This document shows, one piece after another, positions 6,790 through 13,473 of a stretch of DNA of 51,420 bases (positions are counted from its first letter, which is position 1; each line of letters opens with the position of its first letter). Both the position numbers and the translations under genes were made by a program. Where the stretch lies: NCBI GenBank assembly GCA_016793535.1, contig JAEUHA010000140.1:1-51420 (forward strand), written 5' to 3'. This DNA is from Opitutaceae bacterium (lineage in GTDB: Bacteria > Verrucomicrobiota > Verrucomicrobiia > Opitutales > Opitutaceae). The notes under the pieces were generated by a model that was not told where the DNA came from, did not search any database, and saw only the letters and a list, made by a program, of their open reading frames with translations.

Positions 6790-6971
6790 GGCCGGACGAA
6801 GCAGGTGAGCGAGGAGAGGGGCGGGTCGAGCGCCGAACCCTGCGGGGTCGTGGCACCTCGCCGAAGTTGACAGGTACGCCGGCGCGGAACGTCGGCCGCT
6901 TTACGCTCAGCGTCGAACCCCTCGGGCGTTGAGGTGAGGACCGGCCCGCCCGCCTTTGGCTCGGCGGAGGC

Positions 6972-7216: not shown

Positions 7217-8392
7217 ATGGCACTTCTCACGTCTTCGGCTCCGACCGGGATCGGCTCCCGCACCGCCCCCCAGAAAAAAGCCACGCAGGTGAAGGTCGCC
7301 CAGGCGCTGGCCAAGCAAAAGTCACTGGAGAAAAAGGCGAAGTCCTACCGGCTTCCCCTCGGTGAACTGGCGATCTTCACGCAGCAACTCGCGTCCCTGC
7401 TGACCGCCGGCCTCCCGCTGGTGCAATGTCTCGAAGCATTGCAGGACCAGACGGAAGACGAGGTTTTCCGGATCGTGATCCGCGACGTGCGTTCCGACAT
7501 CTCCCAGGGTAACTCCTTCTCCTCGGCGGTGAAGAAGTTCCCCAACGCGTTCAACACCCTCTTCGTTTCCATGGTGGAGGCGGGTGAAGCCAGCGGTGGC
7601 CTCGCGGAGATTCTCGGCAAGGTCGCGTCCTATTTTGAGTCGACGGTCAAGCTGACCAAGAAGGTGAAGTCCGCGATGACCTACCCGATCGCGGTCATCG
7701 GTCTCGCGGTCGCACTCGTGAATGTGCTGCTGATCTTCGTCATCCCGGTCTTCGCCGCGATGTTCGCCGATTTCGGCGCGAAGCTGCCGGCGCCGACGCA
7801 ATTCCTGATCGACCTGTCCAATTTCCTGAAGGCCTGGTGGTGGGCGATCGCGATCTTCTCCTATGGCGCCTGGTGGGGCCTGGGGAAGTTCACTGCGACG
7901 CCGAACGGCCGCCGGGCGCGCGACAAGTTCCTCGTGCGGGCGCCGATCTTCGGCAATCTGATCCACAAGATCGCGCTCTCCCGGTTCTGCCGCACCTATG
8001 CGACGCTGATCCGTTCAGGCGTGCCGATCCTGCGCACGCTCGAGATCGTGTCCGCGGCGAGCGGCAAGGTGCAGATCGAGGACGCGTGCGAGGAGATCGC
8101 CAAGCACGTCAGCCAGGGTGGCCAGGTCTCCGAAGTGCTGGCCGCGAACGAATTTTTCCCGCCCATGATGAAACACATGGTGAAGGCGGGCGAAGCCACC
8201 GGTAATGTCGACGGCATGATGAACAAGGTCGCCGACTTCTACGATGTGGAGTGCGAGGCGACGGTCGCCGCACTCACCTCGCTGATCGAGCCCATGCTGA
8301 TCGTGTTCCTGGGCGTGGTCGTCGGTGGCATCGTGATGGCGATGTTCCTTCCGATCTTCCAGCTGGGCGCCGTGGCCGGCGGGTTGAACTGA
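7217..8392 (+). CDS. Type II secretion/type IV pilus inner-membrane platform protein (GspF/PilC family)
   Basis: 391 aa polytopic platform protein that couples the cytoplasmic motor ATPase to pilus or pseudopilus assembly. Two homologous T2SSF domains are visible: the first with FTQQLASLLTAGLPLVQCLEAL and FVSMVEAGEASGGL (about 50-175), the second with FCRTYATLIRSGVPILRTLEIV and MVKAGEATGNVDGMM (about 255-375). Hydrophobic segments are near 152-180, 200-220 and the C terminus (LIEPMLIVFLGVVVGGIVMAMFLPIF, written here in part). The ATG at 7217 was chosen because the upstream frame runs through the tRNA. No other T2SS or pilus gene is nearby except the regulator-like gene that follows, so the exact system is not decidable. 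Confidence 0.92.
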   Translation: MALLTSSAPTGIGSRTAPQKKATQVKVAQALAKQKSLEKKAKSYRLPLGELAIFTQQLASLLTAGLPLVQCLEALQDQTEDEVFRIVIRDVRSDISQGNSFSSAVKKFPNAFNTLFVSMVEAGEASGGLAEILGKVASYFESTVKLTKKVKSAMTYPIAVIGLAVALVNVLLIFVIPVFAAMFADFGAKLPAPTQFLIDLSNFLKAWWWAIAIFSYGAWWGLGKFTATPNGRRARDKFLVRAPIFGNLIHKIALSRFCRTYATLIRSGVPILRTLEIVSAASGKVQIEDACEEIAKHVSQGGQVSEVLAANEFFPPMMKHMVKAGEATGNVDGMMNKVADFYDVECEATVAALTSLIEPMLIVFLGVVVGGIVMAMFLPIFQLGAVAGGLN

Positions 8393-8466
8393 TCGCGCCG
8401 CGACGCGGCGCGATTTGACTTCGCGCATCGACTTCCGGAACGTCGCCAGTTCCGTTTCCACGCGCC

Positions 8467-10080
8467 ATGCCTTCCGTCCTCATCGTCGACGACCTCGTCG
8501 CGATCCACGAGATGCTCGAGGCGGTCATTCAACCGACCGGCTTCGCCACCACGTTTGCGACCGACGGGGAGAAGGCTTTGGTGCGGTACAAGGCCGAGAA
8601 GTACGATCTCGTGCTGGCGGACATCGACATGAAGCCGATGGACGGGATCACGCTGCTGAGGCAGCTGAAGCACTACGATCCCAGCTGCGTGGTCATCATC
8701 ATGACCGCCTACGCCTCGACGGAGAGTGCCATCCAGGCGCTCAAGTACGGGGCGTTCGACTACCTGCAGAAGCCGTTTCGGGTGGACGACTTGCTGGCCG
8801 CTTTGCGCCGCGGAATGGAGTTCCGGAAATTCCAGCAGGAGCGGGCGGCGGACGGCCATGGGACCGGGGTCAAGACCGAGGAGGTGGAGGCCCGGCTGAT
8901 CGGTCGGAGCGCGGCGCGCGCCAAGCTTGTCGCCCAGGTGCGGAAGCTCGCCACGGTGCGGACCCCCGTGCTGCTGATCGGCGAGAACGGCACGGGGAGA
9001 ACGGCGGTGGCCGAGGTCCTCCACGGCGCCACCGGTGCGCCCGAGGCGGCCTTTGTCCGCGTCGACTGCGCCCGGTGCACGGAAGCCGACTTGCGTGAAG
9101 GGCTGCTGGGGCAGAGCGGCGAGGGAGGGACCTGGGTGCAGCAGGCCACGGGAGGCACGCTCTACCTGCAGAACCTCGAGTGTCTCCCCGATTCGGTGCA
9201 GCGCGAATTGGTGAGCGTGCTGCGCAACTCCGCGTCCGGTTTCCGGCTGATCGGGGCGACCAGCGTCGACCTCGAGCGCCTCGTGGACGAGGGGAAGTTT
9301 CACGACGACCTCTTCTACCGCGTCGCGTCGCTGCCGGTGAATCTGCCGCCGCTCCGGGCCCGGTCCGACGACATTCCGCTGCTCGTGAAGCATTTCTCGG
9401 CCCAGGCGACGAATCCTCAGTTCGACGCGAACCTGATCGAGTTCACCGACGAGGCGGTGGGCGTGCTCACGGCGCACTACTGGCCGGGCAACCTCACCGA
9501 GCTGGCGCAGGTCGTTTCCCAGCTCGTGTCCACCACCGAGACGCGGGTGATCACGTCGCATCAACTGCCGGCGCGCCTGCGCGATCTGAAGCACTGGCCC
9601 AGCCTCGGCGACTATCTGGCCGGGCAGGAGAAACAGTACGTTGACTGCGTGCTCCAGGCCTGCCGGGGCAACACCGCCGCCGCTGCCCGCGTGCTCGGGG
9701 TCGACGAGGCGTGGCTCGCGGCGGACGAACAGGCGTCGGCGGGAACCCGTTCGCCCGCGGCGGGACGCGCCTTGTCGCCGGACGAGCGCGCCGCCCTCGA
9801 CAAGTTGAAGGCCGAACTCGAACGGCAGGAGGCGAGCCTGCAGGATGCGAAGCAGGTGGTGCGCGACCGCGAGGCGTTTCTCAACGAATCGGAGGCGCGA
9901 CTCTTCGAAAAGGTGCAGGCGCAGCAGGAAAAGGAAAACGAGCTCGAGCAGCGCGAGGAGGACCTGCAGAAGCGGCTCCGGCTCGCGCTCGAACTCGAGG
10001 CGAAGTACGACCCGGTCGCCGCGGCCACGCTGAAGTCCGAGGTCGAGGCCTCCCGGCGGCGGGACGAGTTCAACGAGTAA
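8467..10080 (+). CDS. NtrC-like response regulator with degenerate AAA+ domain and coiled-coil tail
   Basis: 537 aa. Residues 1-120 are a receiver domain with acidic pocket D8-D9, phosphoacceptor D52 (LADIDMKPMDG) and the conserved YLQKPF lysine, so it is likely phosphorylated. Residues 150-370 follow the sigma-54 activator AAA+ layout, but key sites are changed: Walker A GENGTGRT (172-179, Arg for Lys), no GAFTGA loop, Walker B region GGTLYLQNLE (229-238, acidic pair lost), KFHDDLFYR (277 on, Arg of FRxDL lost), WPGNLTEL (339-346, sensor II Arg lost). A weak Fis-like stretch (CRGNTAAAARVLGV) precedes a charged heptad-like coiled coil to the end. It follows the GspF/PilC gene by 74 bp. It probably acts as a phospho-controlled scaffold rather than a sigma-54 activator. 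Confidence 0.85.
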   Translation: MPSVLIVDDLVAIHEMLEAVIQPTGFATTFATDGEKALVRYKAEKYDLVLADIDMKPMDGITLLRQLKHYDPSCVVIIMTAYASTESAIQALKYGAFDYLQKPFRVDDLLAALRRGMEFRKFQQERAADGHGTGVKTEEVEARLIGRSAARAKLVAQVRKLATVRTPVLLIGENGTGRTAVAEVLHGATGAPEAAFVRVDCARCTEADLREGLLGQSGEGGTWVQQATGGTLYLQNLECLPDSVQRELVSVLRNSASGFRLIGATSVDLERLVDEGKFHDDLFYRVASLPVNLPPLRARSDDIPLLVKHFSAQATNPQFDANLIEFTDEAVGVLTAHYWPGNLTELAQVVSQLVSTTETRVITSHQLPARLRDLKHWPSLGDYLAGQEKQYVDCVLQACRGNTAAAARVLGVDEAWLAADEQASAGTRSPAAGRALSPDERAALDKLKAELERQEASLQDAKQVVRDREAFLNESEARLFEKVQAQQEKENELEQREEDLQKRLRLALELEAKYDPVAAATLKSEVEASRRRDEFNE

Positions 10081-10230
10081 GTTGCCGCGCGCCCAACCGG
10101 GGTGGCGTGCGATTCCACGCCGGACGTCGGGTTCGTTCCCGCAACGGCCGTGAGACGCGGCGTGGTCAGGGGGCGCTTTCCCGCTTGCCGCGCGTTTCGG
10201 CGCGCTCAACTGTCGCCGAAATCTACGTTC

Positions 10231-13473
<3,243 letters not shown>

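Follow-up and report, generated by a model that had tools for sequence, protein, structure and literature searches.

A degenerate sigma-54 activator with an intact receiver domain encoded beside pilC in Opitutia

Organization of the locus and architecture of the protein

We analyzed the gene at positions 8467 to 10080 of a 51,420-nucleotide stretch of Opitutaceae DNA, hereafter the window, which lies on contig C343 of a 6.6-Mb draft genome that is 86% complete. The gene follows pilC and precedes carB on the same strand. Domains were assigned with Pfam profiles and the two deletion sites by alignment with canonical bEBPs, as listed below with amino acid positions in the 537-aa product.

7262–8392, + strand: conserved part of pilC (type IV pilus/type II secretion protein F, PF00482; Pfam 3e-62); the listed open reading frame opens at 6956
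8467–10080, + strand: degenerate bEBP gene, 537 aa (receiver, degenerate AAA+, truncated HTH, coiled-coil tail)
8476–8808, + strand: receiver domain, aa 4–114 (Pfam E 1.5e-28), with acidic pair D8 D9, D52, T80 and K102
8899–9354, + strand: degenerate sigma-54 AAA+ core, aa 145–296 (Pfam Sigma54_activ_2, 7.5e-23)
8980–9003, + strand: Walker A, GENGTGRT, with Arg178 (codon AGA) in place of Lys
9112–9135, + strand: site of the missing GAFTGA loop, an 8-residue gap after about aa 222
9160–9180, + strand: former Walker B, LYLQNLE, with both acids gone (QN in the window)
9229–9240, + strand: position at which the insertion preceding sensor I is missing (11 residues deleted)
9298–9321, + strand: FHDDLFYR at the FRxDLxxR site, the first Arg replaced by H279 and the second, R285, retained
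9355–9585, + strand: AAA lid, aa 297–373 (Pfam 1.6e-16), with sensor II Arg replaced by T344 (GNLTE for GNVRE)
9604–9720, + strand: C-terminal helix pair, a Fis-type HTH remnant without recognition helix, where orthologues stop
9739–10077, + strand: coiled-coil tail, aa 425–537, a second copy of the COIL protein's C-terminal half
10228–13473, + strand: carB, assigned by synteny; the downstream neighbor in many relatives, not considered functionally involved

Every motif named in a preliminary description of this gene, which had been made from the sequence and had called the protein an NtrC-like regulator with a dead AAA+ domain, was found in the 537-aa protein as stated. The proposed descent from a sigma-54 activator was likewise borne out by Pfam, by PDB profile and fold matches, and by the tree described below. 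The protein scored 79.9 bits against the AAA+ sigma-54 interaction domain PF00158 (cut-off, 20.2), and the HTH_8 remnant at aa 388 to 412 scored 19.0 bits, under the cut-off of 22. With this subthreshold match, and with the recognition helix absent in relatives, the protein does not contain a complete Fis-type HTH. An AlphaFold2 model built with 31 orthologues had a mean pLDDT of 88.5, with values mostly around 90 in the AAA+ core, and the tail was modeled as a single long helix spanning residues 438 to 514. The closest solved structures by PDB profile and fold matches were NtrX, NtrC1, NtrC4, LuxO, VpsR, and FleQ, and the modeled AAA+ domain matched those of FleQ, PspF, and NtrC1 with a target-normalized TM score of ∼0.8. 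Binding of c-di-GMP in the manner of FleQ was considered and set aside, as the segment preceding Walker A, judged by eye, did not resemble the FleQ arginine motif. No publication on this gene was found in the literature searched, which was covered in part.

Conserved defects and continuing erosion

We then asked which of these features are shared among relatives, counting residues and neighboring genes in 80 named genomes of Opitutaceae/Opitutia; the genomes compared were mostly drafts. The five active-site residues of the receiver (D, D, D, T, and K) were invariant in 80/80 relatives, and the window protein has the acidic pair, phosphoacceptor Asp, Thr/Ser, and Lys of a phosphorylation-competent receiver (D8 D9, D52, T80, and K102), which agrees with the intact receiver described earlier from D52. 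Because all five residues are invariant, control of the protein by receiver phosphorylation is likely.

The AAA+ domain presented the opposite picture. No relative had GAFTGA (0/80), which was removed by a clean 8-residue deletion, and alignment with canonical bEBPs revealed the second deletion, of 11 residues, that takes out the insertion before sensor I. The GAFTGA loop and the pre-sensor I insertion are the two loops that set bEBPs apart from the plain AAA+ core; with these two deletions, both are gone. The Walker B acidic pair was essentially gone across the 80 relatives, the sensor II Arg was found in 0/80, and of the two Arg residues in FRxDLxxR the first was present in 0/80 and the second in 80/80. 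The losses of GAFTGA, the Walker B acids, the first FRxDLxxR Arg, and the sensor II Arg had been noted in the preliminary description, and all proved to be conserved in relatives. The exception was the change of the Walker A Lys to Arg, which was correctly read in the window but is not a family trait, since Lys occupies the position in 72/80 relatives and Arg in 8/80, with a few His elsewhere.

The C terminus also departs from what had been described as a coiled coil replacing the DNA-binding end. The tail is present, but it was added behind a truncated Fis-type HTH, and it is absent from the orthologues that stop at ∼418 aa, within the HTH and short of the recognition helix. The protein is shorter still in family f8 and part of f24, where it stops at 374 to 377 aa and the HTH is wholly missing. 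The losses of GAFTGA, the Walker B acids, the FRxDL Arg, the sensor II Arg, and the DNA-recognition helix span five families of Opitutales. By these comparisons, the coiled coil and the Arg in Walker A are local, and the remaining defects are old and maintained. As the motif losses are conserved, loss of ATP hydrolysis, of sigma-54 contact, and of DNA binding is strongly implied.

GAFTGA is also absent from Caulobacter NtrC, Rhodobacter capsulatus NtrC, and VspR, and the known bEBPs of this kind behave as sigma-70-type regulators, having kept DNA binding and the control of ordinary promoters; a comparable loop deletion, also of 8 residues, is present in Caulobacter NtrC (PMC10274813). The protein studied here could work in the same way, and two helices of the Fis-type domain are still present. 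However, the known sigma-70 examples bind promoters, whereas in this family the loss of GAFTGA is accompanied by loss of the recognition helix, before which the orthologues stop, or of the whole C terminus, as in f8 and part of f24. Because the DNA-recognition helix is missing, this explanation is weakened, and we regard it as rather unlikely.

The gene is under strong purifying selection, the dead AAA+ domain included: dN/dS among orthologues was ∼0.04 to 0.1 overall and ∼0.05 within the AAA+ domain itself. Found in every orthologue examined, and with a dN/dS of ∼0.05, the pattern of defects is far beyond chance.

In some lineages the erosion has gone further. Walker A itself is gone in G269 and G318, where it reads GDAGGQKT and GATGIQKS (L308:3555-4781 and L309:2905-4131). 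In G033, a 177-aa form beside pilC (L295:5320-5853) has lost the AAA+ domain by deletion and consists of a receiver, 50% identical over aa 1 to 116, and a C-terminal helix pair matching aa 369 to 418; family f8 lost the C terminus instead. The pilC-adjacent copy in G292 (L305:2764-3519) is broken by stops and an internal deletion. The stages can therefore be read in order, from a canonical protein to one without GAFTGA, Walker B, and DNA-recognition helix, then to one without Walker A, and finally to one without the AAA+ domain. Such stepwise loss of motifs, with Walker A being lost in several lineages and the L305 copy disrupted, would also be expected of a decaying relic retained only by cotranscription with pilC, and often with carB. 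We consider this highly improbable, as the frames are open in nearly all relatives, the dN/dS in the AAA+ domain is as low as given above, and the receiver residues of a relic would not stay invariant in 80/80 genomes.

Because G033 lost the AAA+ domain and f8 the C terminus, a receiver beside pilC is the sole constant part, which argues for the receiver as the working end. The complete deletion in G033 also indicates that the dead AAA+ domain is not indispensable. The earlier proposal of a phosphorylation-controlled scaffold therefore holds in part, as does the earlier interpretation as a whole: the AAA+ domain can be dispensed with, and the coiled coil was found only in the window species and f5.

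Linkage to pilC and origin from a PilR-type activator

The preliminary description had suggested that the regulator was perhaps tied to its PilC neighbor, and gene order now makes this link strong. In 80/80 named Opitutia loci, pilC lies immediately upstream on the same strand, with a median gap of 72 nt, and the adjacency spans families f1, f5, f8, f9, and f24. In the synteny comparison, it was seen in nearly every relative whose gene neighborhood could be read. Four f1 relatives (G007, G028, G031, and G036) have no regulator in any form and no orthologous pilC either. In the sister families f11, f20, f21, and f22, pilC is ∼60 to 63% identical and is not followed by the regulator. The gene next downstream is often carB, though not in every family. 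Two copies not adjacent to pilC were found, a second copy in G077 (L169) and one in G120 (L171); the receiver of the G077 copy (L169:7473-8783) has lost its active site, which now reads N, D, R, T, and I. We note that gene order with pilC can reflect coexpression only.

The window pilC product is 44 to 48% identical to the PilC proteins of pilB-pilC-pilS-pilR-type clusters in other Verrucomicrobiota, compared with 33 to 38% for the second PilC of the genome, encoded on contig C660. The latter belongs to a second type IV pilus/type II secretion cluster (locus L296) with two T2SSE ATPases and a PilT-like ATPase; no pilus ATPase adjoins the window pilC. A strong G+C-rich hairpin, a possible attenuator, lies between the pilC stop and the regulator start (8391 to 8415; fold z-score, −2.2).

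A receiver that is conserved while all output parts erode, and that tolerates deletion of the AAA+ domain in G033, could also be a phosphate sink or partner-binding decoy, draining or titrating a chemosensory or two-component kinase and leaving the pilus untouched. This would leave unexplained both the tight and lasting neighborhood with pilC and the joint loss of the two genes, and we judge it unlikely.

In other classes of the phylum, a canonical bEBP is encoded directly or shortly after pilC. It has a full HTH and the motifs GESGTGKE, LFLDE, FREDL, and GNVRE, together with GAFTGA or a close variant. At L149, a kinase with the PilS transmembrane domain (6TM_PilS) lies between pilC and the bEBP, giving the order pilB-pilC-pilS-pilR. 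Homologues retaining GAFTGA and the Walker residues were thus found only outside the order, where they represent the presumed ancestral, PilR-like form. In the tree, all degenerate proteins group in a single clade (100/100), which is placed nearest the pilC-linked canonical bEBPs and not the other bEBPs of the order, with support of 88/87 that is not decisive. A PilS-type sensor (PF25323) was found in 0/24 relatives searched, so the neighborhood has the pilC of a PilR locus but not its kinase. From the canonical bEBP after pilC elsewhere, the tree placement, and the 0/24 count, the degenerate regulator most likely originated as a PilR that was retired and has lost its PilS. Genome-wide loss of sigma-54 was rejected as an explanation, as the genome encodes several canonical bEBPs, and the end of an rpoN gene is present at a contig edge.

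The coiled-coil tail, proposed function, and known systems

The tail (aa 425 to 537) is 68% identical to the C-terminal half of a separate 231-aa protein, COIL, which this genome encodes on contig C537 (G000:C537:5882-6214). COIL is the third gene of a conserved operon, ParA-P278-COIL (locus L071:5879-8352), whose first gene encodes a ParA/MinD-type ATPase; relatives of the operon occur across Opitutales (L072 to L084 and L190 to L203). No Pfam family matched P278 or COIL, and no known fold matched the P278 model. A lone weak match of P278 to T2SSF (E 0.0036), in 1/12 homologues, was rejected as chance. An assembly chimera is an unlikely source of the tail, which has only 68 to 71% identity to the genome's own COIL and a third-position GC of 0.885 versus 0.902 in the rest of the gene, and the contig runs on into carB as in relatives.

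The pilC-linked protein of family f5 bears a homologous COIL tail. Because the window tail groups with the COIL of its own genome (93/84) and the f5 tails group with each other (90/85), the two fusions are best read as independent. The dN/dS between tail and COIL was ∼0.17. Repeated fusion suggests a functional link to the operon. A strict partnership is refuted by the mismatched distribution, as the operon occurs without the regulator in f20, f21, and f11 and the regulator without the operon in f8 and f9; the link would be optional at best. The fusions do draw attention to an undescribed operon.

We propose, with a probability of roughly 0.6, that the protein is a phospho-switched, nontranscriptional regulator at the pilus base, derived from a pilC-linked PilR-type sigma-54 activator. 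It would no longer drive transcription via sigma-54. As an orphan response regulator, it would receive its phosphate from an unlinked kinase and bind the cytoplasmic face of the type IV pilus base at PilC or its motor ATPase. Through its receiver, it would regulate pilus assembly or positioning in either direction, and the dead AAA+ domain, together with the HTH helices that remain, may serve for oligomerization or as a surface for docking. In the window species and one other family, the COIL tail would allow the regulator to work with, or be recruited by, the ParA system. A bolder version, which is conceivable but doubtful, makes the former PilR a structural component at the base of the pilus. 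There, as a phospho-switched adaptor, it would connect PilC with a coiled-coil positioning system driven by ParA and exert spatial control over the machine whose genes it once regulated. If this were true, a transcription factor would have evolved into the spatial controller of its own former target.

The data as a whole suggest that a former transcription factor has come to control the pilus machine directly. Pseudo-enzymes are common; the staged retirement of a sigma-54 activator, with an invariant receiver held at one pilus gene, is a rare record of a change of job. On this reading, type IV pili in Verrucomicrobiota are predicted to be under direct phospho-control; no such pilus regulator was found described for this phylum in the literature searched (partial coverage). 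Automatic annotations of such genes as sigma-54-dependent regulators are probably wrong.

The nearest relatives in kind are PilR and other pilC-linked canonical bEBPs (e.g., L149:5729-7111), which share the position after pilC and the receiver-AAA+-Fis-type order and form the nearest tree group; the window family differs in lacking GAFTGA, Walker B, the FRxDL Arg, the sensor II Arg, and the recognition helix, with no PilS found. The motifs that PilR needs to activate the pilin promoter with sigma-54 are thereby absent. The GAFTGA-less NtrC proteins discussed above likewise lack the sigma-54 contact loop and have a receiver phosphorylation site, but they act on promoters, whereas the window family, without the recognition helix or the whole C terminus, is linked to a pilus gene (PMC10274813). 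FleQ of Pseudomonas shares the bEBP AAA+ fold, and its AAA+ module is bound by FleN, a ParA/MinD-type ATPase (PMC10723142; PDB 8p53 and 8pb9). FleQ, however, is an active ATPase that has kept GAFTGA and regulates transcription, while the ParA link of the window protein is only suggested, via the COIL fusion. The receiver of Myxococcus xanthus FrzS has no phosphorylation site, unlike the window receiver, where the site is intact, and FrzS is not known to have an AAA+ domain. It is similar in being a receiver protein without transcription output that is linked to pilus-dependent motility, as FrzS moves from pole to pole and is required for social motility (PMC1974792). A precedent for the proposed direct action on the type IV pilus machine is EmvR, an orphan single-domain response regulator. 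It binds PilB and represses PilB ATPase activity (PMC11973254). EmvR consists of the receiver only, whereas the window protein has a dead AAA+ domain attached, and its contact with the pilus is proposed from genomic linkage.
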